Shown here: in pieces, positions 7,989 to 21,942 of the stretch | How the letters are laid out: every line of letters starts with the position of its first letter | Position numbering within the stretch: the first letter of the stretch is position 1 | Made by a program: the position numbers and the translations under genes | Assembly (NCBI RefSeq): GCF_003885105.1 | Contig: NZ_QWZQ01000027.1 | Location: forward strand, 1-42,095 | Length of the DNA: 42,095 nucleotides | From: Lactiplantibacillus garii | GTDB taxonomy: Bacteria > Bacillota > Bacilli > Lactobacillales > Lactobacillaceae | Reading direction: 5' to 3' | The notes under the pieces: model-generated | Databases searched by the model: none | Told to the model about the DNA's origin: nothing | The model's input: the letters and a program-made list of their open reading frames with translations, nothing else

Positions 7989-8004
7989 ATTGGAGGGTGA
8001 AATA

Positions 8005-9060
8005 ATGCTGGGTTTTTCGGTGTATTTGAACCAACCGTTAGATGCAACGCGGCTTGAACAGATGCGAATGATGGCTGACGCCGGCTTTACCGGGGTCTTT
8101 ACGTCGATGCACATTCCGGAGGACGACCCGCATCAATACCTAACGCGAGTCCGAAAACTGGGACAAGTTTGTCGGGAACTAAATTTACAGTTGACCGCGG
8201 ACGTTTCGGCGGCCGGAATGCAACGGATGGGTGTCGATATCAAGGATGCCGCAGCGCTGGCGGAGTTGGGGTTAACGGCGTTACGAATTGATGACGGGGT
8301 GCCAATGACCACCATCGCCGCGTTATCCCACTTGATGCCGATTGCCCTGAATGCCAGTACCATCAGTCCGGCCGACGTTCAGGCATTAACGGTAGCCGGG
8401 GCTAATTTTGAACACTTGGAAGCGTGGCATAACTATTATCCCCGGCCAGAAACCGGGTTGGACGCTGACTGGGTCCTGGCAAAGAATCAGTGGCTAAAGG
8501 CGCAGGGATTTACAACGATGGCGTTTGTGATGGGCGATACCGATTTGCGCGGACCGCTGCACGTCGGGTTACCGACGCTCGAGGCTGACCGTGGCGCCCA
8601 GCCACTGGCGGCTACTTTGAACCTCCAGCGTCGTTTGTTAGTTGATAAGGTTTACGTTGGTGACTCAGTGTTGAGTTCGGCGCGGTGTGAACAATTCAAA
8701 CATTTTTTTAAGGACCACACTTTGCAATTATCCGTTCACACGACGACGGCGCAACTACTGGCAACCACTTGGCATAACCGCCCCGACGTTGCGCGGGACG
8801 TGGTGCGGTTAGTTGAAGGGCGTCAAAAGATTCACCAACTGGCACCGGCCAATACGGTGGCGCGGCCGCTAGGGGCCGTAACGATTGACAATGACCGCTA
8901 TGGCCGTTACGTGGGTGAGCTGCAAATTATGAAGACGGCTTTACCCGCGAATGAACGGGTCAACGTGGTGGGACAAGTTGCCGCGGGTGACTTGGCCTTA
9001 TTACCATGGATCGACAGTAACCAAGCGGTTCAGTTTATAAAGGAGGATGATGGCAATTGA
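8005..9060 (+). CDS. mupG: MupG-type 6-phospho-N-acetylmuramidase (DUF871 family TIM barrel)
   Basis: A 351-residue cytosolic protein recognised as DUF871/MupG by its N-terminus ([19 protein letters not shown]) and the following [20 protein letters not shown]. In Staphylococcus aureus MupG hydrolyses MurNAc-6-phosphate-GlcNAc, the phosphorylated peptidoglycan disaccharide. An N-terminal TIM-barrel region (about 1-230) is followed by a smaller beta-rich C-terminal domain (about 240-350, [21 protein letters not shown]). ATG 8005 is chosen because GGAGG lies 8 bases upstream. The stop codon overlaps the start of murQ, and the order mupG-murQ-murP-regulator mirrors the S. aureus operon, which supports the call. 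The active-site acids are not assigned here. Confidence 0.88.
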
Positions 9061-9947
9061 ACTTAGGAAATTTAACCACGGAAACGCGGAATCAAAAAAC
9101 GATGGCGTTGGATACGTTATCAGTCAAAGAGGTTTTAACCCTCATGAATCAGGAGGATCAGAAGGTTCCGGCGGCGATTCAAAAAGTGCTTCCTCAAATT
9201 GAAAGCGCTGTAAAAACGATTGTTGACCATTTACAAGCCGGCGGTCGCTTAATTTACATGGGGTCTGGAACTAGTGGCCGGCTAGGCGTACTGGACGCCG
9301 CTGAATGTGTCCCGACGTTTGGAACCGCTCCGACGTTGGTCCAAGGTTTGATTGCGGGGGGCATGTCCGCCATGACGGTGGCCGTAGAAGGGGCCGAAGA
9401 TTCCGTTGAACTGGGTCGGCAGGACTTAGTTGATCTAAAACTAACGGCCCACGACACCGTAGTTGGGATCGCGGCGAGTGGTCGGACCCCGTACGTGGTA
9501 GGCGGCTTAGACTATGCTAAGAGCGTTGGTGCCGCAACGATTAGCCTGGCCTGTAACGCGCACGCGGTAATCAGTGACCACGCCGCGATTGCCATTGAAG
9601 TTGAGGTCGGTCCGGAAGTCTTGACGGGTTCGACCCGGCTTAAATCGGGGACGGCGCAAAAATTAGTTTTAAACATGTTATCAACGGTTTCAATGATTGG
9701 AATCGGTAAAGTTTATAAGAATTTAATGGTCGACGTTAAACCAACTAACGAAAAATTGGTCGAACGGGCAAAACGGATCATTGTCCAGGCAACGGACTGT
9801 TCCGCCACAACGGCCGCCAAGGCGTTTGAGGATGCGGATCAAGACGTTAAGCTGGCCATCGTGATGGTTTTAACGGATATGAGTAAGGACGAAGCAGCAC
9901 AACGCCTGCAGCGGGCAAAGGGATTTGTTCGTCAGGCAGTTAATTAG
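9057..9947 (+). CDS. murQ: N-acetylmuramic acid 6-phosphate etherase MurQ
   Basis: A 296-residue SIS-domain lyase that removes D-lactate from MurNAc-6-phosphate to give GlcNAc-6-phosphate. Family signatures are complete: NLTTETRN at the N-terminus, [18 protein letters not shown] with catalytic Glu83, and [11 protein letters not shown] near residue 138, followed by the C-terminal helical part ([20 protein letters not shown]). Length is normal. It starts at TTG 9057 with AAGGAGG about 10 bases upstream; the two nearby ATGs are out of frame. Four bases overlap mupG, indicating translational coupling. It processes the product of MupG and of the PTS encoded next. Confidence 0.95.
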
Positions 9948-9959
9948 GAGGGATTTATT

Positions 9960-11465
9960 ATGGCTGAAGATAAGTACGTTCGGATCGCCCACGCGATTTA
10001 TGACCACGTTGGCGGACCGCAAAACATAGCAAAGTTGATCCACTGCATGACCCGGGTACGGATGACGATTCGGGACGACTCCTTAGTGGACATGGACGGT
10101 TTAAAGGCCATTGACGGCGTCATGGGCGTTGTTCAAGAAGACACGTTGCAAGTCATCGTGGGCCCCGGCACCGTGGACAAAGTGGCCGAAGAAATGGTCA
10201 AAGAAGTGGGGGTTGGCTTAGGCGAACCGTTCCCCGATCCAAGTACTTTTACGACTAAGAATGATTCGACGACCAAGTCGGAACACCAACGTGACAAGGA
10301 AATGGTGGAGGCCAAGGCCAAGAAAGTTCACGCCGCCCAAAAAGCTAAAATTAAACAAACCCCAATGCGCAAAATTTTAAGTGCAATTTCTAGTATTTTT
10401 ATTCCATTAATTCCAGTGTTCGTTGGGGCTGGTTTAATTTCCGGGATCGCTGCAATCCTATCTAATATGATGGTCGCCGGCGATATTGGCAAGAACTGGA
10501 CCGACTTCATTAACGTTTTGAAGGTCATTAACGGTGGCCTGTTCTCGTACTTAGTGATCTACGTTGGGATCAACAGTGCGACCGTCTTTGGTGCAACCGC
10601 CGGCTTAGGTGGGGTCATTGGGGCCGTGACGCTGTTAACGGGGGTCACCCCACAAGCACCGATCCACAACATTTTTAACGGCCAAGCGCTATCCGCGGGT
10701 CAAGGTGGGATCATCGGGGTTATTTTTGCCGTTTGGGTCCTTTCACTCGTTGAAAAATGGTTACACAAAGTTGTTCCGGATTCAATTGACATTATCGTGA
10801 CACCGACGATCGCACTCCTGGTGATTGGGATCTTCACCATCTTTATCGTCATGCCGATTGCCGGGGTTATTTCGACCGGCTTAGTTGGCGGGATCGAATG
10901 GGTCTTAAACGTTGGTGGGGCCTTCTCCGGGTTTGTCCTGGGACTGTTCTTCCTGCCAATGGTCATGTTTGGGTTACACCAAATCTTGACACCAATTCAC
11001 ATTGAAATGATTAACAAGTTAGGCATGACGCCACTATTACCAATTTTGGCTATGGCCGGTGCTGGTCAAGTCGGGGCTGCGATTGCACTGTGGCTGCGTT
11101 GCCGGAATAACCGTCAATTAACGAACATGATCAAGGGGGCCCTGCCCGTTGGGATTTTAGGTATTGGCGAACCGTTAATTTACGGGGTCACGTTACCGTT
11201 GGGCCGGCCGTTTATTACCGCATGTATCGGCGGTGGTATCGGTGGTGCCGTGATTGGTGGTTTAGGTAACATCGGGGCCATCGCAATCGGGCCTTCCGGG
11301 GTCGCACTGATTCCGTTGATCAACAACGGGCACTGGATGGGCTATGTTTTAGGCCTACTAGCGGCGTACGCCGGTGGCTTTGTCGCAACGTACTTCTTCG
11401 GCGTTCCTGCTAGTGCTAAAATAGCTAAAGATAAAGAGGGCCACGAAATCGCAACGGCGGCCTAA
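9960..11465 (+). CDS. murP: MurP-like PTS N-acetylmuramic acid transporter subunit EIIBC
   Basis: A 501-residue EIIBC protein. EIIB (about 1-90) has phospho-Cys29 in [10 protein letters not shown]; a charged linker (about 95-128) precedes EIIC (about 130-490), with around ten membrane segments and the [18 protein letters not shown] signature. There is no EIIA domain, as in known MurP proteins, which borrow a glucose-type EIIA; here a separate EIIA gene sits at the operon end. AGGAGG lies 8 bases before ATG 9960, and the gap from murQ is 12 bases. Imported substrate is probably MurNAc and/or MurNAc-GlcNAc, given mupG. Sucrose- or trehalose-type EIIBC share this fold, but the neighbours argue against them. 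Confidence 0.9.
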
Positions 11466-11495
11466 ATACCATTAGTTAAACGTAGGAGGTTACCC

Positions 11496-12344
11496 ATGAC
11501 TAGTATCTTATTTACCATTCACAACAAGCTAGCCAACTTTTCAAACGCTGAGCAAAAAATTGGCCGCTACATCTTAGAACACACCCACGAGGTGATTCAG
11601 ATGAGTACTGCCGAGCTGGCCGCGGCGGCGGACGTTAGTACCGCGACGGTCGCCCGCTTTGGGCAAGCGCTGATTCCGGACGGTGGGTACCCCGCGTTAA
11701 AATTACGACTGTCGGCAGAAAGCAGTGTTGATCAAAGTTTATACGATGAAATTAACCCCCAGGATGACCTGGCGGCGGTTAAGTCCAAATTAGCGCTACG
11801 GATTAGCCATACGATTGAGGAAACTAACGCCGGCCTAGATGATCAGGCGTTAACGGCGGCGAGCCAACTAATCGCTGGCAAGGCTAACGTGTACGTCTAC
11901 GGACTGGGCGCTTCTAACGTGGCGGCTACCGACTTTGAACAAAAGTTTATTCGGGTCGGTAAGGCCATTATTCACTCGCAGGACACGCACCTGCTAGCCG
12001 TGGGAATTACGACGCAACGCGCCACGGCCGCCGTATTCTTGATTTCCAATTCGGGTGAAAAGGCGGAAAGCATCCAGTTGGCGAACCTGGCCCGCTCAAT
12101 CAACGTACCGGTCATTGTGTTGACGCGCAACCCAAAGAGCACGCTGGGGAAGCTAGCGGACTTTGTGTTGCGCAACGATGACAGTGAAGAAAACCAGACG
12201 GCCCGCACCGCGGCAACCACGTCGTTAATGGCGCAACTGTACGTCATTGATTTGCTGTATTACACCTTTGTCACGCATGATTACGCGCACCACATTAAGC
12301 AACTCGTGGCGACCCGGGACACGATTCGGAAACATTTTAATTAG
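11496..12344 (+). CDS. RpiR-family transcriptional regulator (MurR-like)
   Basis: A 282-residue regulator. Residues 1-77 form the HTH_6 domain (FSNAEQKIGRYILEHTHEVIQM, then DVSTATVARFGQAL); a SIS domain (about 125-255) that binds phosphosugars follows (VYGLGASNVAATDFEQKFIRVGK, then LISNSGEKAES). It lies between the MurNAc permease and its EIIA gene, so it most likely senses MurNAc-6-phosphate and controls this operon, as MurR does in S. aureus and E. coli. The palindrome at 7921-7963 is the best operator candidate. GTAGGAGG is 7 bases before ATG 11496. MurR would be the obvious symbol, but ligand and operator are untested. Confidence 0.88.
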   Translation: MTSILFTIHNKLANFSNAEQKIGRYILEHTHEVIQMSTAELAAAADVSTATVARFGQALIPDGGYPALKLRLSAESSVDQSLYDEINPQDDLAAVKSKLALRISHTIEETNAGLDDQALTAASQLIAGKANVYVYGLGASNVAATDFEQKFIRVGKAIIHSQDTHLLAVGITTQRATAAVFLISNSGEKAESIQLANLARSINVPVIVLTRNPKSTLGKLADFVLRNDDSEENQTARTAATTSLMAQLYVIDLLYYTFVTHDYAHHIKQLVATRDTIRKHFN

Positions 12345-12354
12345 GGGTGGTAAT

Positions 12355-12840
12355 GTGTTCGGTTTTAAGAAAAAGCAAACGGCGGTGGCCTTAAAGGCCA
12401 TTGCTAACGGTCAGCTGATGCCCATTACGGCGGTCGCTGACGAAGTCTTTTCACAGAAAATGATGGGGGACGGCTTTGCCATTGAACCCACCACTGGGAC
12501 GATTACGGCACCCGCGGACGGTGAAATTAAGACTATCGCCGACACGAAGCACGCCGTGATGTTGACGACGCCAGACGGTTTGGAGCTGATGCTGCATCTC
12601 GGCTTGGACACGGTTGAGTTAAAGGGCGCGCCCTTTGACGTTAAAGTTCAAGTTGGTGAACGGGTTACGGCGGGCCAACCACTCGTTCAAATGGACCTTG
12701 CGGCCGTGAAAGCGGCTGGTAAACAGACAACGGTGATCATGGTGATTACGAACATGGATCACGTTGACCAACTAACGGTGACGGCCCCCACGACCGTCAC
12801 GCCGGCGGACGACGCGGCCACGGTGACCGTTAAAGCATAA
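12355..12840 (+). CDS. PTS glucose-type EIIA protein
   Basis: A 161-residue free-standing EIIA of the Glc family. Conserved elements are ITAVADEVFSQKMMGDGFAIEP (24-45), His66 (DTKHAVML) and phospho-His81 (LELMLHLGLDTVEL). It should pass phosphate from HPr to the EIIB of the neighbouring MurP, which lacks this domain. I chose GTG 12355, with AGGGGTGG just upstream, because it begins the normal short N-terminal tail (FGFKKKQ); the longer open frame would run backwards into the regulator gene. An ATG two bases earlier is out of frame. The 10-base gap from the regulator and the terminator after it mark the operon end. It may also serve other EIIA-less permeases of the cell. Confidence 0.9.
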   Translation: MFGFKKKQTAVALKAIANGQLMPITAVADEVFSQKMMGDGFAIEPTTGTITAPADGEIKTIADTKHAVMLTTPDGLELMLHLGLDTVELKGAPFDVKVQVGERVTAGQPLVQMDLAAVKAAGKQTTVIMVITNMDHVDQLTVTAPTTVTPADDAATVTVKA

Positions 12841-12926: not shown

Positions 12927-12955
12927 TTGACAAATGGAACCGTTTACTCTTAAAT
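12927..12955 (+). promoter_or_regulatory. Candidate promoter and cre-like site before the first MFS gene
   Basis: TTGACA (12927-12932) and TTAAAT (12950-12955), 17-bp spacer. Within the spacer TGGAACCGTTTACT resembles cre with two mismatches. Confidence 0.45.
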
Positions 12956-12982
12956 GGTTGTTAATACATGAGCAAAAAGTGT

Positions 12983-12998
12983 TTTGTTACTCAATTCA
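12983..12998 (+). promoter_or_regulatory. Shared 16-bp element, candidate LysR binding site (copy 1)
   Basis: TTTGTTACTCAATTCA lies 27 bases before the first MFS start. Its exact reverse complement occurs at 15323-15338 in front of the shikimate dehydrogenase operon, beside the LysR gene. Confidence 0.65.
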
Positions 12999-13025
12999 AA
13001 TTAAAGCAAGGCACGGGTGACTCAT

Positions 13026-14237
13026 ATGACTTCGACAGAACGAATTAAAACGACAATTTGTTTATACCTGAACTACCTCGTTCACGGCATGGCCATCGTG
13101 ATTCTAGCGCAGAACATGACGGTGCTGGGACGACAATGGCACGTTAACGACGCCGGCGTTTCACTGGTCATTTCATCGTTGGGCATTGGGCGCTTGCTAG
13201 TTCTCTACCTCGCCGGCACTTTTTCCGACCGCTGGGGCCGCAAACTATTTGTCCAACTGGGTATTTTGACGTACACGTTGTTCTTCGTGGGAATCGTCAT
13301 TTCGCCCAATATTTACACGGCGTACTTTTTTGGAATTTTGGCCGGCATGGCCAACTCGTTTTTAGATTCAGGGACGTATCCGGCCCTGATGGAGCTATAT
13401 CCCAAGCGCCAGGCTACGGCCAACATTATGATCAAGGCGTTCGCCTCAATTGGGGAACTACTCCTGCCGATTTTAGTGGCGGGATTGGACCACTTTAATT
13501 GGTGGTACGGCTGGTCCTTCCTACTGTGCGTTATTTTGATGGCGGTTAACTTGGTCTTTCTACGCCGGCGGACTTTTCCGCAACTCTCTACGCACCCGGC
13601 TGAAAAAGCGGTTACCGATGCGACCATCAAGACGGCTTGGACCCCCAAAAAGGTTATTTTGGGCGTCGTTCTGACCATCTTCGGTTACGTTTCGATGGCG
13701 ACCTTTTACCTCGTTAGTCAGTGGCTGACTAAGTACGGCAGCGATGTCATTCAGCTAAACTTAGTTCACGCGCGGATGCTGGTCAGCGTTTATAGTATCG
13801 GGTCGATTCTCGGCGTGATCGTGACCGCGGTCCTCGTTGAACGGGTCATTAAACCCGTTTGGTTCATGTTAATGGATACCTGCGTTTCGTTAGCCGCGCT
13901 GTTAGCCTTAACGCTGGTACCCGAGTGGGGCGTGGCCCTAGTGAGTTCCTTTGTTATTGGCTGCTCGGCGGCCGGTGGCGTTATGCAATTAGGGTTAACC
14001 ATTATGAGTGACACCTTCCCGCGGGCGAAGGGCCGGATTACCGGGATCTACTACACGGCCAGCGGGTTAGCGTCCTTCACGATCCCGGTGGTTACCGCCT
14101 GGATCTCGCAGACGGGTATTCAAGATATTATGTGGTTTGACGTGGCCATCGCGGTCGTCGGGGTACTGTGCAGCCTGGTCGTCTTAAGCCTGGTGCACGG
14201 TCGGCAGCCGGTTGAACGGTTTGAAAAAGCAGCCTAA
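13026..14237 (+). CDS. MFS transporter, paralogue of the shikimate-operon carrier
   Basis: About 403 residues with 12 predicted membrane segments and the MFS loop 2-3 motif (AGTFSDRWGRKLF near residue 65). It strongly resembles the carrier at 16275: both have LYLNY..HGM..ILAQNM, VISSLGIGRL, GILAG.ANSFLDSGTYPALME and WYGWSF.LC. It is therefore a plasma-membrane symporter for a related acid such as quinate or shikimate; the substrate is inferred from context. ATG 13026 is preferred, with GGGTG about 7 bases upstream; an in-frame GTG three codons earlier is possible. It is a single-gene unit, linked to the dehydrogenase operon by the shared 16-bp element. Confidence 0.85.
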   Translation: MTSTERIKTTICLYLNYLVHGMAIVILAQNMTVLGRQWHVNDAGVSLVISSLGIGRLLVLYLAGTFSDRWGRKLFVQLGILTYTLFFVGIVISPNIYTAYFFGILAGMANSFLDSGTYPALMELYPKRQATANIMIKAFASIGELLLPILVAGLDHFNWWYGWSFLLCVILMAVNLVFLRRRTFPQLSTHPAEKAVTDATIKTAWTPKKVILGVVLTIFGYVSMATFYLVSQWLTKYGSDVIQLNLVHARMLVSVYSIGSILGVIVTAVLVERVIKPVWFMLMDTCVSLAALLALTLVPEWGVALVSSFVIGCSAAGGVMQLGLTIMSDTFPRAKGRITGIYYTASGLASFTIPVVTAWISQTGIQDIMWFDVAIAVVGVLCSLVVLSLVHGRQPVERFEKAA

Positions 14238-14242
14238 AAATT

Positions 14243-14293
14243 AAAAAGAGTGTCCTCAAAGTTGTTCACGTTGACTTTGAGGGCACTCTTTTT
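14243..14293. terminator. Bidirectional terminator between the MFS and LysR genes
   Basis: AAAAAGAGTG and CCTCAAAGT pair with ACTTTGAGG and CACTCTTTTT (one internal mismatch). A-rich on the left and T-rich on the right, it can stop both converging transcripts. Confidence 0.85.
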
Positions 14294-14299
14294 ATGGCG

Positions 14300-15229
14300 T
14301 TATAACAGCCGGTTTTGGTTGGTGTAGTGTTGCCAGCAGTAACTGCGGCTGAATTCTTGAAAACGGTGAACCGACGGCGTTAAGAAGTGGTTGCGTTTAA
14401 CGATTAAATAAATTTGGTGCTGCAGGGGTTGGTCGGCTAATGGTTTTAACACCACGCTGCTTTGGTCTAGCAGGGGCAGATCCGGCATGATCGCCACGCC
14501 TAAGCCGAAGCGCACGAACCCCGCCATGGTGTGGTCCTCTTCGACTTCGTAAGCAACCTTGGGTTTGACGTGGGCGCTGGCCAGAATTTGGTCGATCAAC
14601 GGCCGCAACCCGCTGTTTTTGGAGAACAGGATCATCGGGTAGGGTGCCAGTTCCTTGACTTGTACGGCTTCTTTTTGGGCCAGCGGGTGCCCGGTCGGTA
14701 ACGCGGCCACGATGGCTTGCTGGACGAGCGGGATAAAGTCGAATAAGTTGGCGGTGGGCTGCTCACCAAGTTTATCGACATTGGAAGCAAGGACCAGGTC
14801 GTACTTTTCGTCGGCCAGGTCCTCTAGCAGTTCGCCGGAGTTGCCCTGGCCGAGTTCAAACGTGACCGCCTGATTTTGCGGGTCCAGTTGAAACTCGGTA
14901 ATGAGTTCGGGAACGAGTTGTTGGCCCATGGTGTACGTGAAGCCCAGGTTAATGTGCCCGGTATCGGGATTCATCAACTGCTGCACGAGTTCGTTGCCTT
15001 GTGATAAATCGTTTAAACTGGCCGTAATATACTTCAAATAAACCGATCCAATCGGGGTTAATTTGATGTTGCGCCCGTCTGGCTCAAATAAAGGGACGCC
15101 AACTTCTTTTTCAAGCTTTTTAATGGCGTAGCTCAAAGAAGGCTGGGAAATGCCGAGGTTCTCGGCAGCCTTAGCCATGTGCTGCGTCCGGGCTAATTCT
15201 TTAAAAAATTCCAAATGCCTAAGATTCAA
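14300..15229 (-). CDS. LysR-family regulator of the shikimate module
   Basis: A 309-residue LysR-type regulator. Its N-terminal winged HTH (1-60) reads NLRHLEFFKELARTQHMAKAAENLGISQPSLSYAIKKLEKEVGVPLF; the remainder (about 90-300) is the periplasmic-binding-protein-like ligand domain. I chose TTG 15229 because GAAAGGGG is about 10 bases upstream and it gives the family's usual N-terminus; upstream in-frame ATGs exist but would add 8-36 atypical residues. It is divergent from the shikimate dehydrogenase operon and convergent with the first MFS gene, and the same 16-bp element occurs before both. The likely co-inducer is shikimate, quinate or a dehydro-intermediate (inference). Its own -35 region overlaps a palindrome, suggesting autoregulation. 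Confidence 0.88.
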   Translation of the reverse strand: MNLRHLEFFKELARTQHMAKAAENLGISQPSLSYAIKKLEKEVGVPLFEPDGRNIKLTPIGSVYLKYITASLNDLSQGNELVQQLMNPDTGHINLGFTYTMGQQLVPELITEFQLDPQNQAVTFELGQGNSGELLEDLADEKYDLVLASNVDKLGEQPTANLFDFIPLVQQAIVAALPTGHPLAQKEAVQVKELAPYPMILFSKNSGLRPLIDQILASAHVKPKVAYEVEEDHTMAGFVRFGLGVAIMPDLPLLDQSSVVLKPLADQPLQHQIYLIVKRNHFLTPSVHRFQEFSRSYCWQHYTNQNRLL

Positions 15230-15290
15230 ACTAATGATACCCCTTTCATTCATAAACAAATTCGATTGATTAAGCAACGTATTCATATTT

Positions 15291-15321
15291 ATTATATTAA
15301 AGCATTTTGTTACGATAACAA
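15291..15321 (-). promoter_or_regulatory. Candidate promoter of the LysR gene
   Basis: On the minus strand TATAAT occupies 15296-15291, with TTGTTA at 15321-15316 (19-bp spacer) or TTATCG at 15318-15313 (16-bp spacer). The -35 region lies in the palindrome at 15307-15321. Confidence 0.45.
15307..15321. promoter_or_regulatory. Palindrome TTGTTA-CGA-TAACAA, candidate LysR operator
   Basis: Perfect 6-bp arms around CGA in the divergent LysR/shikimate dehydrogenase region. The TAACAA half-site recurs as part of the neighbouring 16-bp element at 15323-15338, so two adjacent sites would let the regulator span both promoters. Confidence 0.65.
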
Positions 15322-15322
15322 G

Positions 15323-15338
15323 TGAATTGAGTAACAAA
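15323..15338 (-). promoter_or_regulatory. Shared 16-bp element, candidate LysR binding site (copy 2)
   Basis: TGAATTGAGTAACAAA is the exact reverse complement of 12983-12998. It overlaps a possible -35 (TTGAGT, 15327-15332) for the shikimate dehydrogenase operon; no good -10 is visible (TTTAAA at 15350), consistent with an activator-dependent promoter. Confidence 0.65.
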
Positions 15339-15377
15339 TCAACAAAAAATTTAAAAATATTTTAGGAGTGGATTAAC

Positions 15378-16262
15378 ATGACAGAACGTATTGATGGACA
15401 CACTTTATTAATTGGCTTAATGGCATACCCGATTCGGCACTCGATGTCACCAACCATGCACAACAACGCTTTTGCAAAATTAGGGTTAAATTACGCTTAC
15501 CTGGCTTTTGAAGTGGGCAACGACCAGTTACCTTCTGCCATTGAATCGATTCGGACTCTAGATATGCGTGGGTCGAACATCTCCATGCCCAACAAGCAAA
15601 AGGTGATCCCGTTGCTTGATAAGTTGGACCCGGCCGCTGAAATGGTCGGCGCGGTCAACACGATCGTTAACGATGACGGGGTTTTGACCGGTTACACGAC
15701 CGACGGGATCGGCTTTATGAAGTCCTTAGACGACGAAGGCATTGACATTCGCGGTCACAAGATGACCTTAGCGGGTGCCGGTGGTGCCGGAACGGCGATT
15801 GCGGTTCAAGCTGCCTTAGACGGCGTGAAGGAAATGTCGATCTTTAACCAACACGACGCGGAATGGGAAAACGCTAAGCGCAACGTCGCTTTGATCAACG
15901 AAAAAACCGATTGCCACGCAACCTTACACGAATTAGAAGACCGTGACGATTTTAAGAAAGAAATTCAAAGTTCATTTATCTACACCGATTCAACCGGCGT
16001 TGGGATGAAGCCGTTGGAAGACAAGACCTTGGTTGACGACCCAACCTGGTTTAACAACCCCGATTTAGTGGTCTTTGACACGGTTTACGCACCCCGTGAA
16101 ACTAAGTTAATGCGGGTCGCAAAACAAGCCGGTGTTAAGCACGTCTTTAACGGCTTAGGCATGATGCTGGAACAGGGTGCCGCCGCCTTCAAACTTTGGA
16201 CGGGCGAAGACATGCCAGTTGACTACATCCGTCACATTTTATTCGATGACGATCAAAAATAA
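15378..16262 (+). CDS. Shikimate/quinate dehydrogenase (AroE/YdiB family)
   Basis: A 294-residue NAD(P)-dependent dehydrogenase interconverting shikimate and 3-dehydroshikimate, and possibly quinate and 3-dehydroquinate. The substrate domain has PIRHSMSPTMHNNAF (19-32), catalytic Lys73 in SMPNKQKV, GAVNTIV (91-97) and Asp109 in TTDGIGF. The Rossmann domain begins with LAGAGGAGTA (131-140). It fits the slightly longer YdiB-like branch (about 285-295 aa) better than biosynthetic AroE (about 270). AGGAG lies 9 bases before ATG 15378. It heads an operon with a carrier, a dehydroquinase and flavin-reductase genes but no other aromatic biosynthesis gene, so a catabolic or respiratory role is likely. 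Cofactor preference is not assigned. Confidence 0.9.
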   Translation: MTERIDGHTLLIGLMAYPIRHSMSPTMHNNAFAKLGLNYAYLAFEVGNDQLPSAIESIRTLDMRGSNISMPNKQKVIPLLDKLDPAAEMVGAVNTIVNDDGVLTGYTTDGIGFMKSLDDEGIDIRGHKMTLAGAGGAGTAIAVQAALDGVKEMSIFNQHDAEWENAKRNVALINEKTDCHATLHELEDRDDFKKEIQSSFIYTDSTGVGMKPLEDKTLVDDPTWFNNPDLVVFDTVYAPRETKLMRVAKQAGVKHVFNGLGMMLEQGAAAFKLWTGEDMPVDYIRHILFDDDQK

Positions 16263-16274
16263 TGAGGTTCTAAT

Positions 16275-17507
16275 ATGAAAAATAAGTATATGCCGACTGC
16301 CATCAGCCTGTATTTGAACTATTTCATTCACGGGATGGGCGTCATTATCTTGGCACAAAATATGGAGGCCCTCGCTAAGCACTGGAATACCACTACCGGG
16401 GGCGTGGCCGTAGTCATTTCTTCCTTGGGAATTGGGCGGCTGATCGTATTGCTGGTTTCCGGCTGGTTATCCGATAAGTTCGGTCGTAAGCCGTTCGTTA
16501 TTTTAGGGGTGATCACCTACCTGCTGTTCTTCGGCGGAATCTTAATGAGTACGTCGATTGCGGTAGCCTACGTCTTTGGGATCTTGGCCGGGATTGCCAA
16601 CTCCTTCTTAGACTCCGGGACGTACCCCGCTTTAATGGAAATGTTCCCCGAATCCAAGGGGACGGCTAACGTTATTATCAAAGCTTTCATCTCCGTTGGT
16701 CAGTTTGGGCTACCCCTGTTAGTCAGCTTCTTAGTAGCTGGCAATTACTGGTACGGCTGGTCCTTTATTCTATGTATTGTCGTTTTGTTAGCCAACCTGA
16801 TCTTCATGGCCGCTGCCGGCAAGTTCCCGGTTGCTAACCAGGATGCTAAGGTTGAAGAAAAGGCTGCCGCAGCCGATGATCAACCCGTTTCTAAGGGTAA
16901 CTTATGGTTTGACGGAACGCTGTTCATCCTTTATGGTTACGTTTCACAAGCAACCTTCTACCTCGTTAGTCAGTGGCTCAGTCAGTACGGCGCCAAGGTT
17001 GCCGGAATGGGCGATGCCAGTTCTCGGGCTTTGATCAGTTACTACAGTGTCGGTTCGATCGTCTGTGTACTGGTCACCGCCGCGTTAGCTAAGCGCGCCG
17101 TTAAGGAAATTCAATTTTTAGGGGTTTACACCTTAATTTCGTTCGTTTCATTGCTATTGATGTACTTGTTCCCAACGGCCATCATGTGTTCCATCATGTC
17201 ATTTGTCGTGGGGTTCTCCGCCGCTGGTGGGGTCATGCAACTTGGCTTGACGGTCATGTCGACCTTCTTCCCATCCGGCAAAGGAACGATTACCGGGGCG
17301 TTTTACACGGCCGGATCGATTGCTTCCTTCACGATTCCGCTGGTTACCGGGATGATGTCAACCAACCTGGCCAACATCTTCTTATTCGACGTCATCATCG
17401 CGTTAGTTGGGTTCGTCCTAGCCGTCTTGATTACGGTACGTTACTACCACTTATTTGGTAAAACTAATCAAAAGGGGGTTGCCACTAATGGAGCAACCAG
17501 TCGTTAA
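16275..17507 (+). CDS. MFS transporter in the shikimate operon
   Basis: A 410-residue, 12-segment MFS carrier with the loop 2-3 motif SGWLSDKFGRKPF near residue 70 and a charged central loop (about 190-205, KVEEKAAAADD). It is a close paralogue of the carrier at 13026. It starts 12 bases after the dehydrogenase stop, and its 3' end overlaps the dehydroquinase start by 20 bases, so it is firmly in this operon. Uptake of shikimate, quinate or a related alicyclic acid is the natural inference; product/substrate exchange is an alternative. ATG 16275 has TGAGG 8-9 bases upstream. Confidence 0.88.
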   Translation: MKNKYMPTAISLYLNYFIHGMGVIILAQNMEALAKHWNTTTGGVAVVISSLGIGRLIVLLVSGWLSDKFGRKPFVILGVITYLLFFGGILMSTSIAVAYVFGILAGIANSFLDSGTYPALMEMFPESKGTANVIIKAFISVGQFGLPLLVSFLVAGNYWYGWSFILCIVVLLANLIFMAAAGKFPVANQDAKVEEKAAAADDQPVSKGNLWFDGTLFILYGYVSQATFYLVSQWLSQYGAKVAGMGDASSRALISYYSVGSIVCVLVTAALAKRAVKEIQFLGVYTLISFVSLLLMYLFPTAIMCSIMSFVVGFSAAGGVMQLGLTVMSTFFPSGKGTITGAFYTAGSIASFTIPLVTGMMSTNLANIFLFDVIIALVGFVLAVLITVRYYHLFGKTNQKGVATNGATSR

Positions 17508-18249
17508 ATTACGTAACTTAAGTTTGGGGACCGGTCGTCCCAAGTTGGCCGTCCCGATTACGGGGAAAACGACCGCCGACATTTTAGCCGCGGTCGACCC
17601 CATTAAAGCCGCCGACCCGGACGTGGTCGAATGGCGGATCGATTTCTTTGAAGGCGTGACCGACGTTAAGCAACTTCAACAAACTGGTCAGTGGTTACGC
17701 AGCGCGCTTGGTTCAATTGCGCTGCTGACTACCTTCCGGACTAAGGGTGAGGGTGGCGAACTCGAGCTGAGTGACGCCGATTACTTCACCGTTTGTGAGA
17801 ACGTCTTAGCCGGTAATTTCACCGACGCGTTGGACGTTGAACGGTACCACGACGAAGCCGCCGTTAAGGGCTTGGTTGCCAAGGCCCACGCGAACCACGT
17901 CGTCGTGATCATGAGTAACCACGATTTTGACAAAACGCCGAATAAGAAGGACCTGGTTGGTCGGTTGACCAGCATGGTGGCTTTCGGGGCCGACGTCGCT
18001 AAAATGGCGGTCATGCCGAAATCGGCCGACGACGTGTTAACGCTGTTAGCCGCCACCAACGAAGCCCACAAAACGTTGTCACAACCCGTGATTACGATGT
18101 CCATGGGTGATCTGGGAAAGGTTTCCCGGCTTTCCGGTGAAGTCTTCGGTTCCTGTTTATCCTTCGCGACGGTCGGTGCGGCTTCCGCTCCCGGTCAAAT
18201 TGCGTTGGACCACCTCAGGCCCGAATTAGAAGACTTAAAACTTAGTTAA
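17488..18249 (+). CDS. aroD: Type I 3-dehydroquinate dehydratase
   Basis: A 253-residue class I (Schiff-base) dehydroquinase that interconverts 3-dehydroquinate and 3-dehydroshikimate. Diagnostic residues are VEWRIDFFEG (48-56), the FRTKGEGGE stretch (83-91), catalytic His145 in SNHDFDKTP and Schiff-base Lys172 in VAKMAVMP. The length is that of bacterial AroD. ATG 17488 is chosen because AAAGGGGG lies about 10 bases upstream; it lies within the end of the carrier gene, indicating translational coupling. With the dehydrogenase it links the quinate and shikimate branches, so quinate could be carried to shikimate in three steps using only this operon. Confidence 0.94.
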   Translation: MEQPVVKLRNLSLGTGRPKLAVPITGKTTADILAAVDPIKAADPDVVEWRIDFFEGVTDVKQLQQTGQWLRSALGSIALLTTFRTKGEGGELELSDADYFTVCENVLAGNFTDALDVERYHDEAAVKGLVAKAHANHVVVIMSNHDFDKTPNKKDLVGRLTSMVAFGADVAKMAVMPKSADDVLTLLAATNEAHKTLSQPVITMSMGDLGKVSRLSGEVFGSCLSFATVGAASAPGQIALDHLRPELEDLKLS

Positions 18250-18269
18250 TTAAAAAGGGGGTTACGTGG

Positions 18270-19226
18270 ATGACCGTTGCACAGAAAAAGTACGTTTCGC
18301 AATTTACCATGATGGGTACCGTCATCTCACTGACCCTGTTTGAACCACGACAGACGGTGGTTGAAGCCGTCTACGACTACTTAGCACAAATGGACCGGGT
18401 CTTTTCGGTGAACCGGTCCGATTCTGAATTAAGTGCTGTGAATCAGGACGCGGGGCAGCATGCCGTTACGGTCAGCCCCGGCTGTTTTGACCTGATTCGC
18501 GACGCCGTTGACTATTCCCGGCAACACGCGGACAGCTTTAACGTGTTGATTGGCCCGCTGGTAAAACTATGGAGAATTGGTTTTGGTGGTCAGCAAGTTC
18601 CGGACCAATCCGCGATTGAACAACGCTTACAACTGATGACTCTCGATCAGGTGGAATTAAACGCTACACGCCGTAGCGTTTTCTTGAAACGGGCGGGAAT
18701 GCAGCTCGACCTTGGTGCCATTGCCAAGGGTTACTTTGCCGACCAAATTGTGGCGCAGTTAGCCGGTGTTGGGATCAAGAGCGCCATCGTTAATCTAGGT
18801 GGCAACGTGAAGTTACTGGGTTCCAATCCGTTAAGTCCGGATGGTCAGTGGCAGGTCGGCGTCCAGGCCCCGGCCGCGCCACGGGGTTACCCGGTTTTAC
18901 AGGTGCAAATGTCCGCTAAAACGGTGGTTACTTCCGGGATCTTTGAACGTTACTTCGAAGTTAACGGTCACCGTTATCACCACATTCTGGATCCTCAGAC
19001 CGGTTATCCGGTTGAAAATCAGTTAGACCAAGTGACCGTGATCACTGACCAGTCCGAACTGGCCGAAGTGTTATCAACGGTGACCTACTTTAAAGGACCA
19101 CGAGCCGGGGCAGCTTTGATTGAAAAGCTGCCCGGTACCGAAGCTATTTTTATTGATCGTCAGCAGCAAGTAACGGTTACAAGTGGCTTGCAACCGCGAC
19201 GCAAAGGAGTGTTTTATATTGAGTAA
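18270..19226 (+). CDS. ApbE-family FAD:protein FMN transferase, cytoplasmic form
   Basis: A 318-residue flavin transferase that attaches FMN through a phosphoester bond to a Thr in DxxSGAT-type motifs. Family blocks present are FTMMGTVISLTL (11-22), LDLGAIAKGYFAD (near 149), NLGGNVKLLG (near 173) and TSGIFERYF...HHILDPQTGYPV (near 220-250). There is no signal peptide or lipobox, unlike exported ApbE of respiratory systems, so it acts in the cytosol. AAAAAGGGGG precedes ATG 18270. The next gene, whose start overlaps its stop, encodes an FMN_bind domain with exactly such a motif, so it is the evident target. Confidence 0.92.
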   Translation: MTVAQKKYVSQFTMMGTVISLTLFEPRQTVVEAVYDYLAQMDRVFSVNRSDSELSAVNQDAGQHAVTVSPGCFDLIRDAVDYSRQHADSFNVLIGPLVKLWRIGFGGQQVPDQSAIEQRLQLMTLDQVELNATRRSVFLKRAGMQLDLGAIAKGYFADQIVAQLAGVGIKSAIVNLGGNVKLLGSNPLSPDGQWQVGVQAPAAPRGYPVLQVQMSAKTVVTSGIFERYFEVNGHRYHHILDPQTGYPVENQLDQVTVITDQSELAEVLSTVTYFKGPRAGAALIEKLPGTEAIFIDRQQQVTVTSGLQPRRKGVFYIE

Positions 19227-21516
19227 TGAACAAGTAAAGGGCCAAGCGATGGGCCACAACGGGATCATCAATTACGAAGTTGACCTACAGGATAATAAAA
19301 TTGAGGATTTAAAGATTTTAAAGCATTCCGAAACGTCCGGGATCTTTAACCAAGTCATTGATAAGCTGAAACATAACATTATTACCGAACAGTCGTTTGA
19401 CGTGGATACGATTAGCGGGGCGACCGTCATGACGCAGGCCCTCCTAAGTTCGGCTGACAAGGCGGTGGAAGCCGCGGGAATCAACGTTAAACCGACGCCA
19501 AAAGCTAAAGCAACGGACACCACGAAGCGTTATAAAACCGACGTTTTGATCATTGGTGGCGGTGAAGCTGGTTTAGTTGCCGGTTGCCGCGCTTTAGCCC
19601 TGGGCCAAAAGGTTATCTTGGTCGAAAAGAACGGCTACATGGGTGGCGCAACCATCCTGAATGGTTCCAACGTGGTTGGGACTGGATCGAACGTGGCCGC
19701 TCAGATTTTTGATAATAACCACGATACGCCGGAAATGCTGGCCCAAGACGTTAGTCGCGAAAGCTTGGAAACCAACTACCCCGCTTTGACCGACTTAATG
19801 GTTCATAACATTGGTTCTGCCATTGATTTCGTCAGCGAGTTTGCCGACCTGCACTACCAAAAAGCGCAGACCCAAACACCAGAACACTCAATTAACCGGC
19901 AGATTGAATTACCAAGTGCCAGCAGCTTTGAATTTATTCAAAAAGTGTCCAAAGCCTTTACCGCGGCGGGCGGTCAAATTCTGTTGGACACCCGGGTTGA
20001 AGAGTTGACCTTTAACCGTAACCACGATTTAAACGGGGTCGTGGCTAAGCAACACGACCTGACCGTTAAGATCAAGGCTAAGTCCGTTGTCTTAGCTACT
20101 GGTGGGCACGGTGCCAACCAAAAGATGCGCGGGGACGAAAGCAAAGGGATCGACTACTACGGTCCAATGACGTCGACCGGTGACGCCTACCAGTTTAACG
20201 ACGTTCTTGATTTACAGACCCACGACTTGGGTTGGTACAAGATTTACCCACACGGGGTGGAAGTTGAACCCGGCGTGGCCAAACTGACCACCTACGCTTC
20301 TAAGGAAGCTACCGATATGGGCGCGATCTACGTTAACAGTAAGGGTGAACGGATCGTCAACGAATCCAACGTTTACACCGCCTTCCGTAACGCCATTCTC
20401 AAGCAGGATGACAAGGTTGCCTACTTAGTGATGGACGAACGGACATGGAAGAAAGTTTACGATTTACTAGTCTTGCACGACTTTACACCGCAAGAAATCA
20501 AACAATTCTTCGCCGACCCAACGAAGCGCCCGGTTTTTGTTAAGGGTGACTTACAGACGGTCGCTAAGGAAGCGGGGATTGACGGGACGGCTTTAGCCGC
20601 GACCGTGCAGCGGTACCAGGACTTCGTGAAGAATGGTCACGACCAGGAATTCGGCCGGGACCCACAGTTCTTACACCAGTTTGAAGGCCAAACTTTCTAC
20701 GTGATTGAACAACGCGACCGCTTTGCGACGACGTTAGGTGGTTACAGCGTTAACGCTGACAATCTCCAGTTGCTAACAACGAAAAACGCGCCGGTCGCGA
20801 ACTACTTCGGTGCCGGTGAGGTTATCGGCGGCGCCAACGGGCACGATTCAATGCCAAGCATGATGAATACTTGGGGCATTTCGTCCGGTTACGTAGCCGG
20901 CGCGGCGGCGAGTGCAAACGCTAAGCGTCAAACTGCCGCTGGCGATGACGAAGCCAACATCGTGGCCATCGTGGGCACTAACGCCTCCAAGTCGTATAAC
21001 CGCAAGTTGCTGTTTGCGATGAAGGACTTGTTCGAAACCGAAGTTAACTTTGAAATTTGTGAAATCAAGGACCTGCCACTCTTTAACGAGGACGACCTCG
21101 ATCAAGAACCAGCGAGCGTTAAAGCTTTAGCCGCTAAGGTTGAAGCCGCGGACGGCGTTGTGATCGGGGTGCCCGAATACGACCACTCCGTACCAGCCGC
21201 TTTAAAGAGTGCTTTGGAATGGTTGTCCAGCGCGGAACACCCGTTTAAGGACAAGCCGGTTATGATTGTCGGGACCTCCTTAGGAATTCAAGGAACGGTT
21301 CGGGCCCAAATGAACCTGCGCCAAATTCTGGATTCACCGGGGATGGACGCGAAGGTCATGCCGGGGAACGAATTTATGTTGCCACAGGCTGGTACCAAGT
21401 TTGACGAACACGACCACTTAAACGATGACGGCAGTGAACACTTCTTAAAACAGTGCTTTAGCCACTTCTTAGACTATTTACCTGCTGATACTAAAACGGC
21501 TGTTACTAGCCATTAA
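19219..21516 (+). CDS. Three-domain flavoprotein reductase: FMN_bind + FAD_binding_2 + NADPH-dependent FMN reductase
   Basis: A 765-residue soluble protein without signal peptide. Domain 1 (about 10-88) is FMN_bind with the flavinylation motif DTISGAT, Thr69 being the likely acceptor. Domain 2 (about 107-568) is a fumarate-reductase/flavocytochrome-c-like FAD_binding_2 domain (DVLIIGGGEAGLVAG 108-122, LATGGHGAN 292-300, GAGEVIGGANGHD 531-543). Domain 3 (about 580-755) is a flavodoxin-fold NAD(P)H:FMN reductase (AIVGTNASKSYNRKLL, then GVPEYDHSVPAALKSALEW). Electrons could pass NAD(P)H to FMN, covalent FMN, FAD, then an alkene. The usual fumarate-reductase carboxylate-binding NRLGG motif after GEV.GG is replaced by HDSMPSMMNTW, so fumarate is unlikely. 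TTG 19219 is chosen, with AAAGGAG about 10 bases upstream. I propose shikimate or dehydroshikimate as acceptor; cinnamate-type acceptors are alternatives. Confidence 0.88.
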   Translation: MSNEQVKGQAMGHNGIINYEVDLQDNKIEDLKILKHSETSGIFNQVIDKLKHNIITEQSFDVDTISGATVMTQALLSSADKAVEAAGINVKPTPKAKATDTTKRYKTDVLIIGGGEAGLVAGCRALALGQKVILVEKNGYMGGATILNGSNVVGTGSNVAAQIFDNNHDTPEMLAQDVSRESLETNYPALTDLMVHNIGSAIDFVSEFADLHYQKAQTQTPEHSINRQIELPSASSFEFIQKVSKAFTAAGGQILLDTRVEELTFNRNHDLNGVVAKQHDLTVKIKAKSVVLATGGHGANQKMRGDESKGIDYYGPMTSTGDAYQFNDVLDLQTHDLGWYKIYPHGVEVEPGVAKLTTYASKEATDMGAIYVNSKGERIVNESNVYTAFRNAILKQDDKVAYLVMDERTWKKVYDLLVLHDFTPQEIKQFFADPTKRPVFVKGDLQTVAKEAGIDGTALAATVQRYQDFVKNGHDQEFGRDPQFLHQFEGQTFYVIEQRDRFATTLGGYSVNADNLQLLTTKNAPVANYFGAGEVIGGANGHDSMPSMMNTWGISSGYVAGAAASANAKRQTAAGDDEANIVAIVGTNASKSYNRKLLFAMKDLFETEVNFEICEIKDLPLFNEDDLDQEPASVKALAAKVEAADGVVIGVPEYDHSVPAALKSALEWLSSAEHPFKDKPVMIVGTSLGIQGTVRAQMNLRQILDSPGMDAKVMPGNEFMLPQAGTKFDEHDHLNDDGSEHFLKQCFSHFLDYLPADTKTAVTSH

Positions 21517-21523
21517 CGGCTCA

Positions 21524-21567
21524 AAAAAGGCCTTGCCACCGACTATACGCGGGGGCAAGGCCTTTTT
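21524..21567 (+). terminator. Terminator of the shikimate operon
   Basis: AAAAAGGCCTTGCC and GGCAAGGCCTTTTT are perfect 14-bp arms around a 16-base loop. The symmetry lets it also serve the convergent small gene on the minus strand. Confidence 0.9.
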
Positions 21568-21573
21568 GACTGG

Positions 21574-21942
21574 CTAGATTTTTTGTTCGATGTCATTAAC
21601 GGTCACGACCAAAACGGCGCGAATCCAGTCAAATTCAGCTTTCATTTCGTTAAAGTAGGCGCCGGCGGTTTGGAACTCGCCGGTACCGTGGACGTGGAAC
21701 CCACAACCAGTGCCGGTCGTGCCGGGAACTTGGTAACTCCCAACCGCAATGGTCAGGTGGTTGTCGGTTGGAAAATCATTTTCAATGGAGTGCATTCCGG
21801 CAGACGGGATTAGCAAAGTGTGGTCGTCGACAACGTGGATGTAGTGACTCCAAGTGTTAACGACGTGGGCCGGGTGGGCATTTACTGTGACGATGGTGGC
21901 TGGGGTGGTTGCTTTGATAACTTTTAAAAATTTAGGATCCAT
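21574..21942 (-). CDS. Pyridoxamine 5'-phosphate oxidase-like FMN-binding split-barrel protein
   Basis: A 122-residue cytosolic protein with the short split-barrel fold pattern: FLKVIKATTPATIVTVNAHPAHVVNTW, then LLIPSAGMHSIENDFPTDNHLTIAVGS and GTGCGFHVHGTGEFQTAG. Such proteins bind FMN (sometimes heme or F420); those of this length are usually of unknown function. AAAGGAAG lies 8 bases before its ATG on the minus strand. It is convergent with the flavoprotein reductase across a shared terminator and has its own upstream region. A flavin-linked job beside a flavin-rich operon is suggestive, but nothing shows they cooperate. Confidence 0.75.
   Translation of the reverse strand: MDPKFLKVIKATTPATIVTVNAHPAHVVNTWSHYIHVVDDHTLLIPSAGMHSIENDFPTDNHLTIAVGSYQVPGTTGTGCGFHVHGTGEFQTAGAYFNEMKAEFDWIRAVLVVTVNDIEQKI

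Follow-up and report, generated by a model that had tools for sequence, protein, structure and literature searches.

HcrB and Par1 are described as hydroxycinnamate reductases of lactobacilli, which use an external alkene as electron acceptor; HcrB is under a LysR regulator and requires NADH and FMN (PMC10295242). Another hydroxycinnamate route, through FarAB, is described for Weissella (PMC13101492). In UrdA, the substrate carboxylate is bound by R411, H520 and R560, residues that are called essential and conserved across the fumarate reductase family (PMC7921117). Here, we analyzed a stretch of 42,095 nucleotides from Lactiplantibacillus garii (assembly GCF_003885105.1, contig NZ_QWZQ01000027.1, positions 1 to 42,095 of the forward strand), which is referred to as the window, and focused on the gene cluster at 12927–21567. 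The cluster encodes two major facilitator superfamily (MFS) carriers, a LysR-type regulator, a shikimate/quinate dehydrogenase (AroE), a type I 3-dehydroquinate dehydratase (AroD), an FAD:protein FMN transferase (ApbE) and a flavinylatable three-domain reductase (FLAV). The gene set, order and spacing listed in an earlier note on this DNA are all present. The module is real and conserved, and is also found on plasmids. It is probably a LysR-controlled cassette of plant-associated lactic acid bacteria for the anaerobic reduction of imported quinate or shikimate, in which FLAV would act as an NAD(P)H-dependent 3-dehydroshikimate reductase and provide an electron sink during fermentation.

After the removal of duplicates, the co-localization within 12 kb was examined in 61 FLAV loci other than the window, with AroE at least 60% and AroD at least 42% identical. 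AroE is located near FLAV in 53 loci, AroD in 54, and both in 53. A short-chain dehydrogenase/reductase (SDR) is encoded in 17 loci, and 12 loci encode a TIM-barrel protein (AP_endonuc_2). FLAV was seen close to AroE and AroD in ten named genera, in varying gene order. As a control, the fetched contexts of paralogous flavoproteins (L102, L103, L106, L107 and L114–L120; L106 and L107 are 7.7 and 4.1 kb) contained AroE or AroD in none of 11 cases; this control leaves out L121, whose own cluster is about 10 kb away, and the paralogues of genus g38. The cassette arrangement is not due to chance. Among 51 loci with a FLAV frame longer than 500 residues, AroD adjoins FLAV in the same direction, directly or with ApbE alone separating the two, in 26 and is fused to FLAV in one more; AroE takes this position in 12. 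The fusion is found in Ligilactobacillus pobuzihii (L061 10010–12484), where FLAV and AroD form one polypeptide of 825 residues with FMN_bind at 10–81, FAD_binding_2 at 105–543 and DHquinase_I at 590–815, and the catalytic His and Lys are kept. In another locus (L054 12675–14447), AroE lies in a frame of 591 residues in which only an N-terminal Shikimate_dh domain is recognized, corresponding to a fusion or a frameshift.

In the megaplasmid pMP118 of Ligilactobacillus salivarius UCC118, genes for two MFS carriers, LysR, a TIM barrel, an SDR, FLAV, a shikimate dehydrogenase and AroD are arranged in a row; ApbE is absent from this cassette, and IS3 transposase genes are located upstream. FLAV is contained in 28 plasmid records, all of Ligilactobacillus and 10 of them typed mobilizable, and the gene content was read in pMP118 alone.

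The cassette was then compared with the biosynthesis of aromatic compounds. In the 2.97-Mb genome of L. garii, no match to AroB (3-dehydroquinate (DHQ) synthase) and no type II dehydroquinase were found, the only Shikimate_dh_N match is AroE of the cassette, and chorismate synthase (AroC) is retained. A second AroD-like protein of this genome (L100, contig C112, a frame of 252 residues) was considered as a rival dehydroquinase and rejected, as the catalytic His and Lys are missing at the aligned positions (alignment at 27% identity); AroD of the cassette is the one intact dehydroquinase. A second, diverged DHquinase_I match is present in 21 of 21 genomes of the genus. Three relatives (G011, G018 and G020) lack both AroB and AroC and keep FLAV with AroE and AroD, and therefore the purpose of the cassette is not biosynthesis. 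FLAV is also kept in G010, G015 and G016, where AroB and extra AroE copies are present. A biosynthetic aro operon is thus ruled out by the AroB and AroC counts. Since AroB is absent from L. garii, the substrates of the cassette must be imported in this species, which fits the two carriers; chorismate from imported shikimate is possible as a second use. With this independence, the co-localization in 53 of 61 loci, the natural FLAV–AroD fusion and the common operator described below, both the module and the dedicated reductase proposed in the earlier note are upheld.

FLAV consists of three domains above the Pfam cut-offs. The FMN_bind domain (19252–19467, + strand; PF04205, 47 bits) contains the flavinylation motif SGAT with the acceptor Thr at 19423–19425. 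A motif of this kind is described in PMC8238504, and SGA[T/S] is present in 51 of 52 FLAV rows, with AGA in the remaining one. FLAV thus combines an FMN_bind domain bearing the [S/T]GA[S/T] motif with an adjoining ApbE, and its flavinylation is predicted. The FAD_binding_2 catalytic domain (19540–20850, +) is followed by an FMN_red domain, an NAD(P)H-dependent FMN reductase (20956–21390, +; PF03358, 129 bits).

In the HMMER alignment, the six UrdA residues used are all consistent with a single numbering offset, and R411, H520 and R560 correspond to Tyr, Ala and Ser in FLAV of the window. The Tyr codon at 20374–20376 replaces the arginine Fcc3 R402/UrdA R411, and the Ser codon at 20848–20850 replaces UrdA R560. 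In the FLAV clade, the R411 position is Tyr in 52 of 52 rows, the H520 position is Ala in 42, Cys in 9 and Ser in 1, and the R560 position is Ser in 50 of 52. Among 16 paralogue rows, which include two duplicates of genes already represented, no Tyr occurs at the R411 position, and 8 rows have Arg there. The Fcc3 counterparts of His520 and Arg560 are presumably His504 and Arg544. A plain fumarate reductase is ruled out by this mapping, as the carboxylate-binding residues are replaced. The TIGR01813 flavocytochrome c cut-off is missed by FLAV (187.9 against 285.45 bits). The tyrosine lies in the motif NESxxYxxxR, which is aligned, with the pattern NESxPYxxF, without gaps to NESLPYDQF of the 3-ketosteroid dehydrogenase (KSTD) structure 4c3x. 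Residue 338 of 4c3x is taken by us to be the catalytic Tyr318, in the NExxPY motif, of Rhodococcus erythropolis KSTD1, behind a 20-residue tag. In KSTD, a second Tyr/Gly pair binds the keto oxygen. The curated NCBIfam cut-offs for KSTD are also missed by FLAV, with a best score of 107.7 of 789 bits among the KSTD models listed.

The structure model of FLAV (pLDDT 81.6) was compared using Foldseek. UrdA and Fcc3 are ranked first, followed by KSTD and cyclohexanone dehydrogenase. The best match is 6t85 (E 1.5e-32) and Fcc3 entries come next; the FAD and clamp domains are folded as in fumarate and urocanate reductases. The matches of KSTD and cyclohexanone dehydrogenase show target template-modelling scores of 0.60–0.72 at 17–20% identity. 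A more far-reaching reading, which we hold tentatively, is that FLAV is an Frd-fold enzyme in which the arginine mechanism was swapped for a KSTD-type tyrosine, that it is the 3-dehydroshikimate (hydroaromatic enone) reductase missing from lactic acid bacteria, and that the content of the cassette sets the end product.

FLAV forms one clade of 51 rows with a support of 100/100. The FMN_red domain was apparently fused in a single branch of 26 rows in this clade, with one loss (L055); the two-domain and three-domain labels of the tree are used within the FLAV clade only, as most paralogue loci are incomplete. The closest named relatives are from Lactiplantibacillus xiangfangensis (91%) and Lactiplantibacillus plajomi (87–88%), and orthologues were found in 35 named loci. 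In a sample of 397 genomes of the family, 57 match FLAV at E 1e-40; one of the 57 (G228) is matched solely by a distant paralogue (29%), and three further listed matches are paralogues at 27–28% alongside true FLAV. In the sample of 398 genomes of the phylum, L. garii itself is the only match at 1e-60. Both sets are samples, not a census. In G280 (L096), FLAV adjoins genes for ApbE (36%) and for RibF-like, glycerol-3-phosphate oxidase-like and old-yellow-enzyme-like proteins (the last three by eye), and in genus g38 (L070, L074, L076 and L078) Frd-like FMN_bind paralogues are located upstream of the FLAV cluster.

The gene content, its co-inheritance, the fusion with AroD, the common operator and the loss of the Frd residues are results of computation; we infer the reaction, substrate, direction, product, cofactor and physiology of the cassette as follows. 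Quinate or shikimate would be imported by either MFS carrier. AroE would oxidize quinate to 3-dehydroquinate, or shikimate to 3-dehydroshikimate, and AroD would dehydrate 3-dehydroquinate to 3-dehydroshikimate. In the cytoplasm, FMN would be attached by ApbE to the FMN_bind domain of FLAV, and the electrons would pass from NAD(P)H to the FMN_red domain, the bound FMN and then the FAD. The FAD may reduce the C1=C2 bond of 3-dehydroshikimate as a cyclic enone, in which the hydride is transferred from FAD N5 to the beta carbon, and the proton is supplied by the invariant tyrosine. Then the ring ketone would be reduced by AroE, or by SDR where present, and the dihydroshikimate would be excreted; the AroE step on the saturated ketone is a prediction. 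Per quinate, the dehydrogenation would yield one NAD(P)H, and the enone and ketone reductions would consume two, resulting in a net reoxidation of one. The SDR was rejected as an obligate part of the cassette, as it is present in 10 of 21 genomes of the genus and absent from that of L. garii.

The proposed assignment as NAD(P)H-dependent 3-dehydroshikimate reductase is based on the following: KSTD and cyclohexanone dehydrogenase act on cyclic ketones beside the carbonyl, the AroD product is a cyclic enone, and AroD is the fusion partner. The reductive direction is suggested by the FMN_red domain and the fermentative hosts. On the same sequence evidence, we strongly infer that 3-dehydroshikimate is the substrate. 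The earlier note had left open the choice between shikimate and dehydroshikimate; both the fusion with AroD and the tyrosine of the KSTD type speak for 3-dehydroshikimate, and shikimate is less likely.

The cassettes differ in the genes that may act on the reduced product. In Lactiplantibacillus plantarum (L036), a second block beside the cassette contains LysR, a TIM barrel, an SDR, two more AroE paralogues and an MFS carrier, and the TIM barrel shows a weak similarity to the 3-dehydroshikimate dehydratase QuiC. In Secundilactobacillus (L046, L048 and L050), an SDR is present, and no TIM barrel was found in the stretch examined. As a part of the tentative reading above, cassettes without the QuiC-like TIM barrel, such as those of the window and of Secundilactobacillus paracollinoides (L048), might stop at dihydroshikimate, whereas the TIM barrel and SDR of L036 might lead through hydroxyl loss to 3,4-dihydroxycyclohexanecarboxylate. 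In the older literature, dihydroshikimate was reportedly obtained from Lactobacillus pastorianus, and 3,4-dihydroxycyclohexanecarboxylate from L. plantarum. L. pastorianus is the present-day S. paracollinoides, which has the cassette, with several genes in short frames. If correct, the reading from cassette content would account for the two different products. In Secundilactobacillus (L048, L050 and L091; 11506–13672 in L091), genes for 3-deoxy-D-arabino-heptulosonate 7-phosphate synthase and DHQ synthase are located beside the cassette, in two flanking copies in L048 and L091; possibly, sugar-derived dehydroquinate is fed into the electron sink there.

Other explanations have to be weighed against 3-dehydroshikimate reduction. 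FLAV may reduce shikimate directly as an α,β-unsaturated carboxylic acid, in the manner of fumarate and urocanate reductases, and AroD and AroE would then merely make shikimate. Shikimate is the AroE product with an activating carboxylate, AroE is found in 53 of 61 loci, and FLAV belongs to the Frd-fold superfamily, whose structures are its best fold matches. However, all three carboxylate contacts are replaced in FLAV, and the fusion partner is AroD, not AroE, and AroD directly adjoins FLAV or is joined to it in 27 of 51 loci, against 12 for AroE. Direct reduction of shikimate is thus unlikely. The KSTD-type tyrosine motif and the fold matches would also suit a dehydrogenase function of FLAV, as in KSTD and cyclohexanone dehydrogenase, by which a hydroaromatic ketone would be oxidized towards an aromatic acid and the electrons passed to oxygen or free flavin; quinate is known to be converted to hippurate in the gut. 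The FMN_red domain in the 26-row branch points to NAD(P)H as the donor, however, and extra reducing equivalents would be of little use to fermentative hosts, so that this direction is very improbable. Alternatively, the cluster may salvage plant quinate and shikimate for chorismate in a strain without AroB, with FLAV unrelated or accessory. The genome of L. garii, which has chorismate synthase without AroB and no AroE other than that of the cassette, agrees with salvage, as does G009, where AroC is present, AroB is absent and an AroE–AroD pair occurs without FLAV. Against salvage stand the three relatives that keep the cassette without chorismate synthase, the three that keep FLAV despite AroB and further AroE copies, and the existence of the FLAV–AroD fusion; we consider it quite unlikely.

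That FLAV reduces a different plant alkene set free along with quinate, for example caffeate or intact chlorogenate, in the way of HcrB and Par1, is given little probability. Chlorogenic acid is a quinate ester, the flavin and NAD(P)H domains are similar to those of HcrB as described in PMC10295242, and Par2 of Furfurilactobacillus milii, mentioned in PMC10216370 and PMC12248444, might conceivably be identical to FLAV. On the other hand, a linkage to AroD is not expected for a reductase of the HcrB and Par1 kind, and the L. plantarum homologues of Par1 are given as lp_0952 and lp_0055 in PMC10295242. Furfurilactobacillus rossiae has two FMN_bind proteins, one of which is FLAV and the other a frame of 645 residues. 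The 645-residue protein has two homologues (50–51%) in G015 and one in G016, and FLAV of F. rossiae has a single orthologue at 67–68% in each. From these homologue counts, Par1 is most likely not FLAV; it most likely corresponds to the other FMN_bind protein of F. rossiae. The sequences suggest that the paralogues with the NTQGG motif are Par1-like.

Several observations weigh against 3-dehydroshikimate reduction by a dedicated cassette. ApbE is near FLAV in only 30 of 61 loci, and many FLAV orthologues have no FMN_red domain and would need electrons supplied in trans. Eight of the 61 loci (L055, L060, L064, L073, L078, L079, L081 and L098) do not have the AroE and AroD pair. In L064, L079 and L081 FLAV is partial, the stretches of L078 and L098 stop close to the end of a contig, L073 contains AroD without AroE, and L055 has AroE paralogues; L060 from Tetragenococcus muriaticus, with an intact FLAV and neither AroE nor AroD, is a true exception. 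Conversely, G009 retains AroE and AroD without FLAV. The earlier note had named homologous operons consistently lacking the flavoprotein as a ground for refutation; no such consistent absence was seen in the loci examined, and this single FLAV-less pair was found in a search within the genus. As to the enzyme itself, the alignment score with KSTD is weak (E 0.17) and the comparison is based on the motif position, the Frd-type structures outscore the tyrosine-type structures overall, and 2lfc, a fragment of the L. plantarum orthologue (clamp domain, 77% identical to the model), is labelled fumarate reductase in the PDB. Moreover, KSTD and cyclohexanone dehydrogenase, the nearest tyrosine-type relatives of known function, are named dehydrogenases, and the reductive direction of FLAV is a presumption.

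In the G009 stretch around the AroE–AroD pair (L104, C1:125600–145400), neither LysR nor an operator site was found, and the single genomic copy of the operator-like 15-mer described below lies inside an ABC transporter gene. The pair adjoins GH1-like glycosidase genes (by eye) and a phosphotransferase system (PTS) gene, and a similar glycosidase–AroE–AroD run is located beside the cassette in G001 (L105). Both FLAV and AroE are absent from G002.

The operator-like 15-mer TTGTTACTCAATTCA, which the earlier note leaves unmentioned, is located at 12984–12998 (+) upstream of MFS carrier 1, and it matches exactly the reverse complement of 15323–15337, where the inverted copy (−) lies between lysR and aroE. 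No other place in the genome of L. garii matches the 15-mer with one mismatch or fewer. Because the exact 15-mer is common to both regions, MFS carrier 1 is probably part of the regulon. All of 21 hand-picked loci, which span seven named genera, have the 15-mer with two mismatches or fewer in the region separating lysR from the first gene of the operon, or inside the extended 5' frames of these two genes, and 15 of the loci also have it 5' of the first MFS gene. In L033–L067, 49 such sites were counted, against 2 for the reversed pattern. Another 28 loci were scanned. A LysR at least 54% identical is encoded in 11 of them, and the site lies beside lysR in 9; in the other two, L057 and L066, no 15-mer was found beside lysR. 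Where a different LysR is encoded, the 15-mer is mostly absent. These features suggest that the cassette is under LysR control through the 15-mer, to which LysR would bind.

MFS carrier 1 (13026–14237, +; PF07690), with its own operator copy, is a probable importer of hydroaromatic acids. A hairpin at 14242–14294, between this gene and lysR, is T-rich on both strands and may terminate in both directions, with folding energies of −32.1 and −25.2 kcal/mol on its two strands. MFS carrier 1 is a separate transcription unit with its own terminator, which is shared with the convergent lysR. The regulator gene (14300–15229, −; HTH_1 and LysR_substrate) is divergent from aroE; its start is probably a TTG, the longest frame extends to 15337, and the NCBIfam relatives among the 25 matches listed are all under their cut-offs. 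The five-gene operon begins with aroE (15378–16262, +), which scores 525 bits with NF001313 (cut-off 431) and 325 bits with PRK12749, the quinate/shikimate dehydrogenase model, short of the cut-off of 349. MFS carrier 2 (16275–17507, +; PF07690) is 49% identical to MFS carrier 1 across 392 residues. AroD (17488–18249, +; TIGR01093, 224 bits, cut-off 139) starts with the ATG at 17488, 20 bases within the MFS carrier 2 gene, and its catalytic His (MSNHDF) and Lys (DVAKMA) are kept in 49 of 50 aligned AroDs, the window copy among them. The apbE gene (18270–19226, +; PF02424, 271 bits) is followed by the gene for FLAV (19219–21516, +; 765 residues), which most likely starts with the TTG at 19219, 9 bases 3' of AAAGGAG. 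No signal peptide was recognized by eye on ApbE or FLAV. From aroE to FLAV, the spacings are a 12-base gap, a 20-base overlap, a 20-base gap and an 8-base overlap. The operon ends at an intrinsic terminator hairpin (21524–21567, +; −31.6 kcal/mol, z −6.05 against 200 shuffles). A single terminator had been claimed in the earlier note, which holds for the five-gene operon and fails for MFS carrier 1 with its own hairpin.

Directly 3' of the operon terminator, a small PNPOx-like protein is encoded at 21574–21942 (−), with PF01243 under the cut-off, and such a gene is also located downstream of FLAV in L033, L039 and L055. Just 5' of the cassette (7990–12840), there is an apparent N-acetylmuramic acid 6-phosphate block (MupG-like, MurQ, PTS, RpiR regulator and EIIA), in which the names were given by eye except for PTS_EIIA_1; MurQ and EIIA recur in L034.

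Among the open-licence literature matches listed, none was seen to name a gene with which lactobacilli reduce quinate, shikimate or dehydroshikimate. The FLAV cassette is a candidate for the reduction of quinate to dihydroshikimate by cider lactobacilli. If this is true, it would provide the genes for an activity of cider and vegetable lactobacilli reportedly seen decades ago, in which quinate and shikimate serve as hydrogen acceptors, and food and gut bacteria, among them those with the L. salivarius megaplasmids, would have an abundant plant acid as electron acceptor. It would also correct the PDB label on the L. plantarum orthologue, and would exemplify a change of substrate among Frd-fold enzymes through the exchange of the catalytic arginine for tyrosine.

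FLAV shares the FAD_binding_2 fold with Fcc3 and UrdA, and UrdA is likewise flavinylated by ApbE (PMC7921117). In contrast to both, FLAV has Tyr in place of the catalytic Arg, its substrate-binding His and Arg are replaced, no signal peptide is seen by eye, and an NAD(P)H domain is fused. Like HcrB and Par1, FLAV would be a soluble flavoprotein reductase; unlike them, it is linked to AroE and AroD. FLAV forms a clade apart from the NTQGG-type paralogues taken as Par1-like, and HcrB was compared by its description. With KSTD and cyclohexanone dehydrogenase, FLAV has in common the Tyr motif (NESxPY in KSTD), the fold and, by prediction, the chemistry of cyclic ketones and enones, whereas it is 17–20% identical to them, misses the KSTD cut-offs, and the known members are named for oxidation. 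The cassette has the components of a quinate/shikimate catabolic module, that is, an AroE-type dehydrogenase, a dehydroquinase, an importer and a regulator, independent of biosynthesis. The aerobic qui and qsu operons likewise contain a quinate/shikimate dehydrogenase, a dehydroquinase, an MFS importer and a regulator, and L036 adds the weakly QuiC-like TIM barrel. Unlike in these operons, the product in the FLAV cassette would be reduced, and not only aromatized to protocatechuate.

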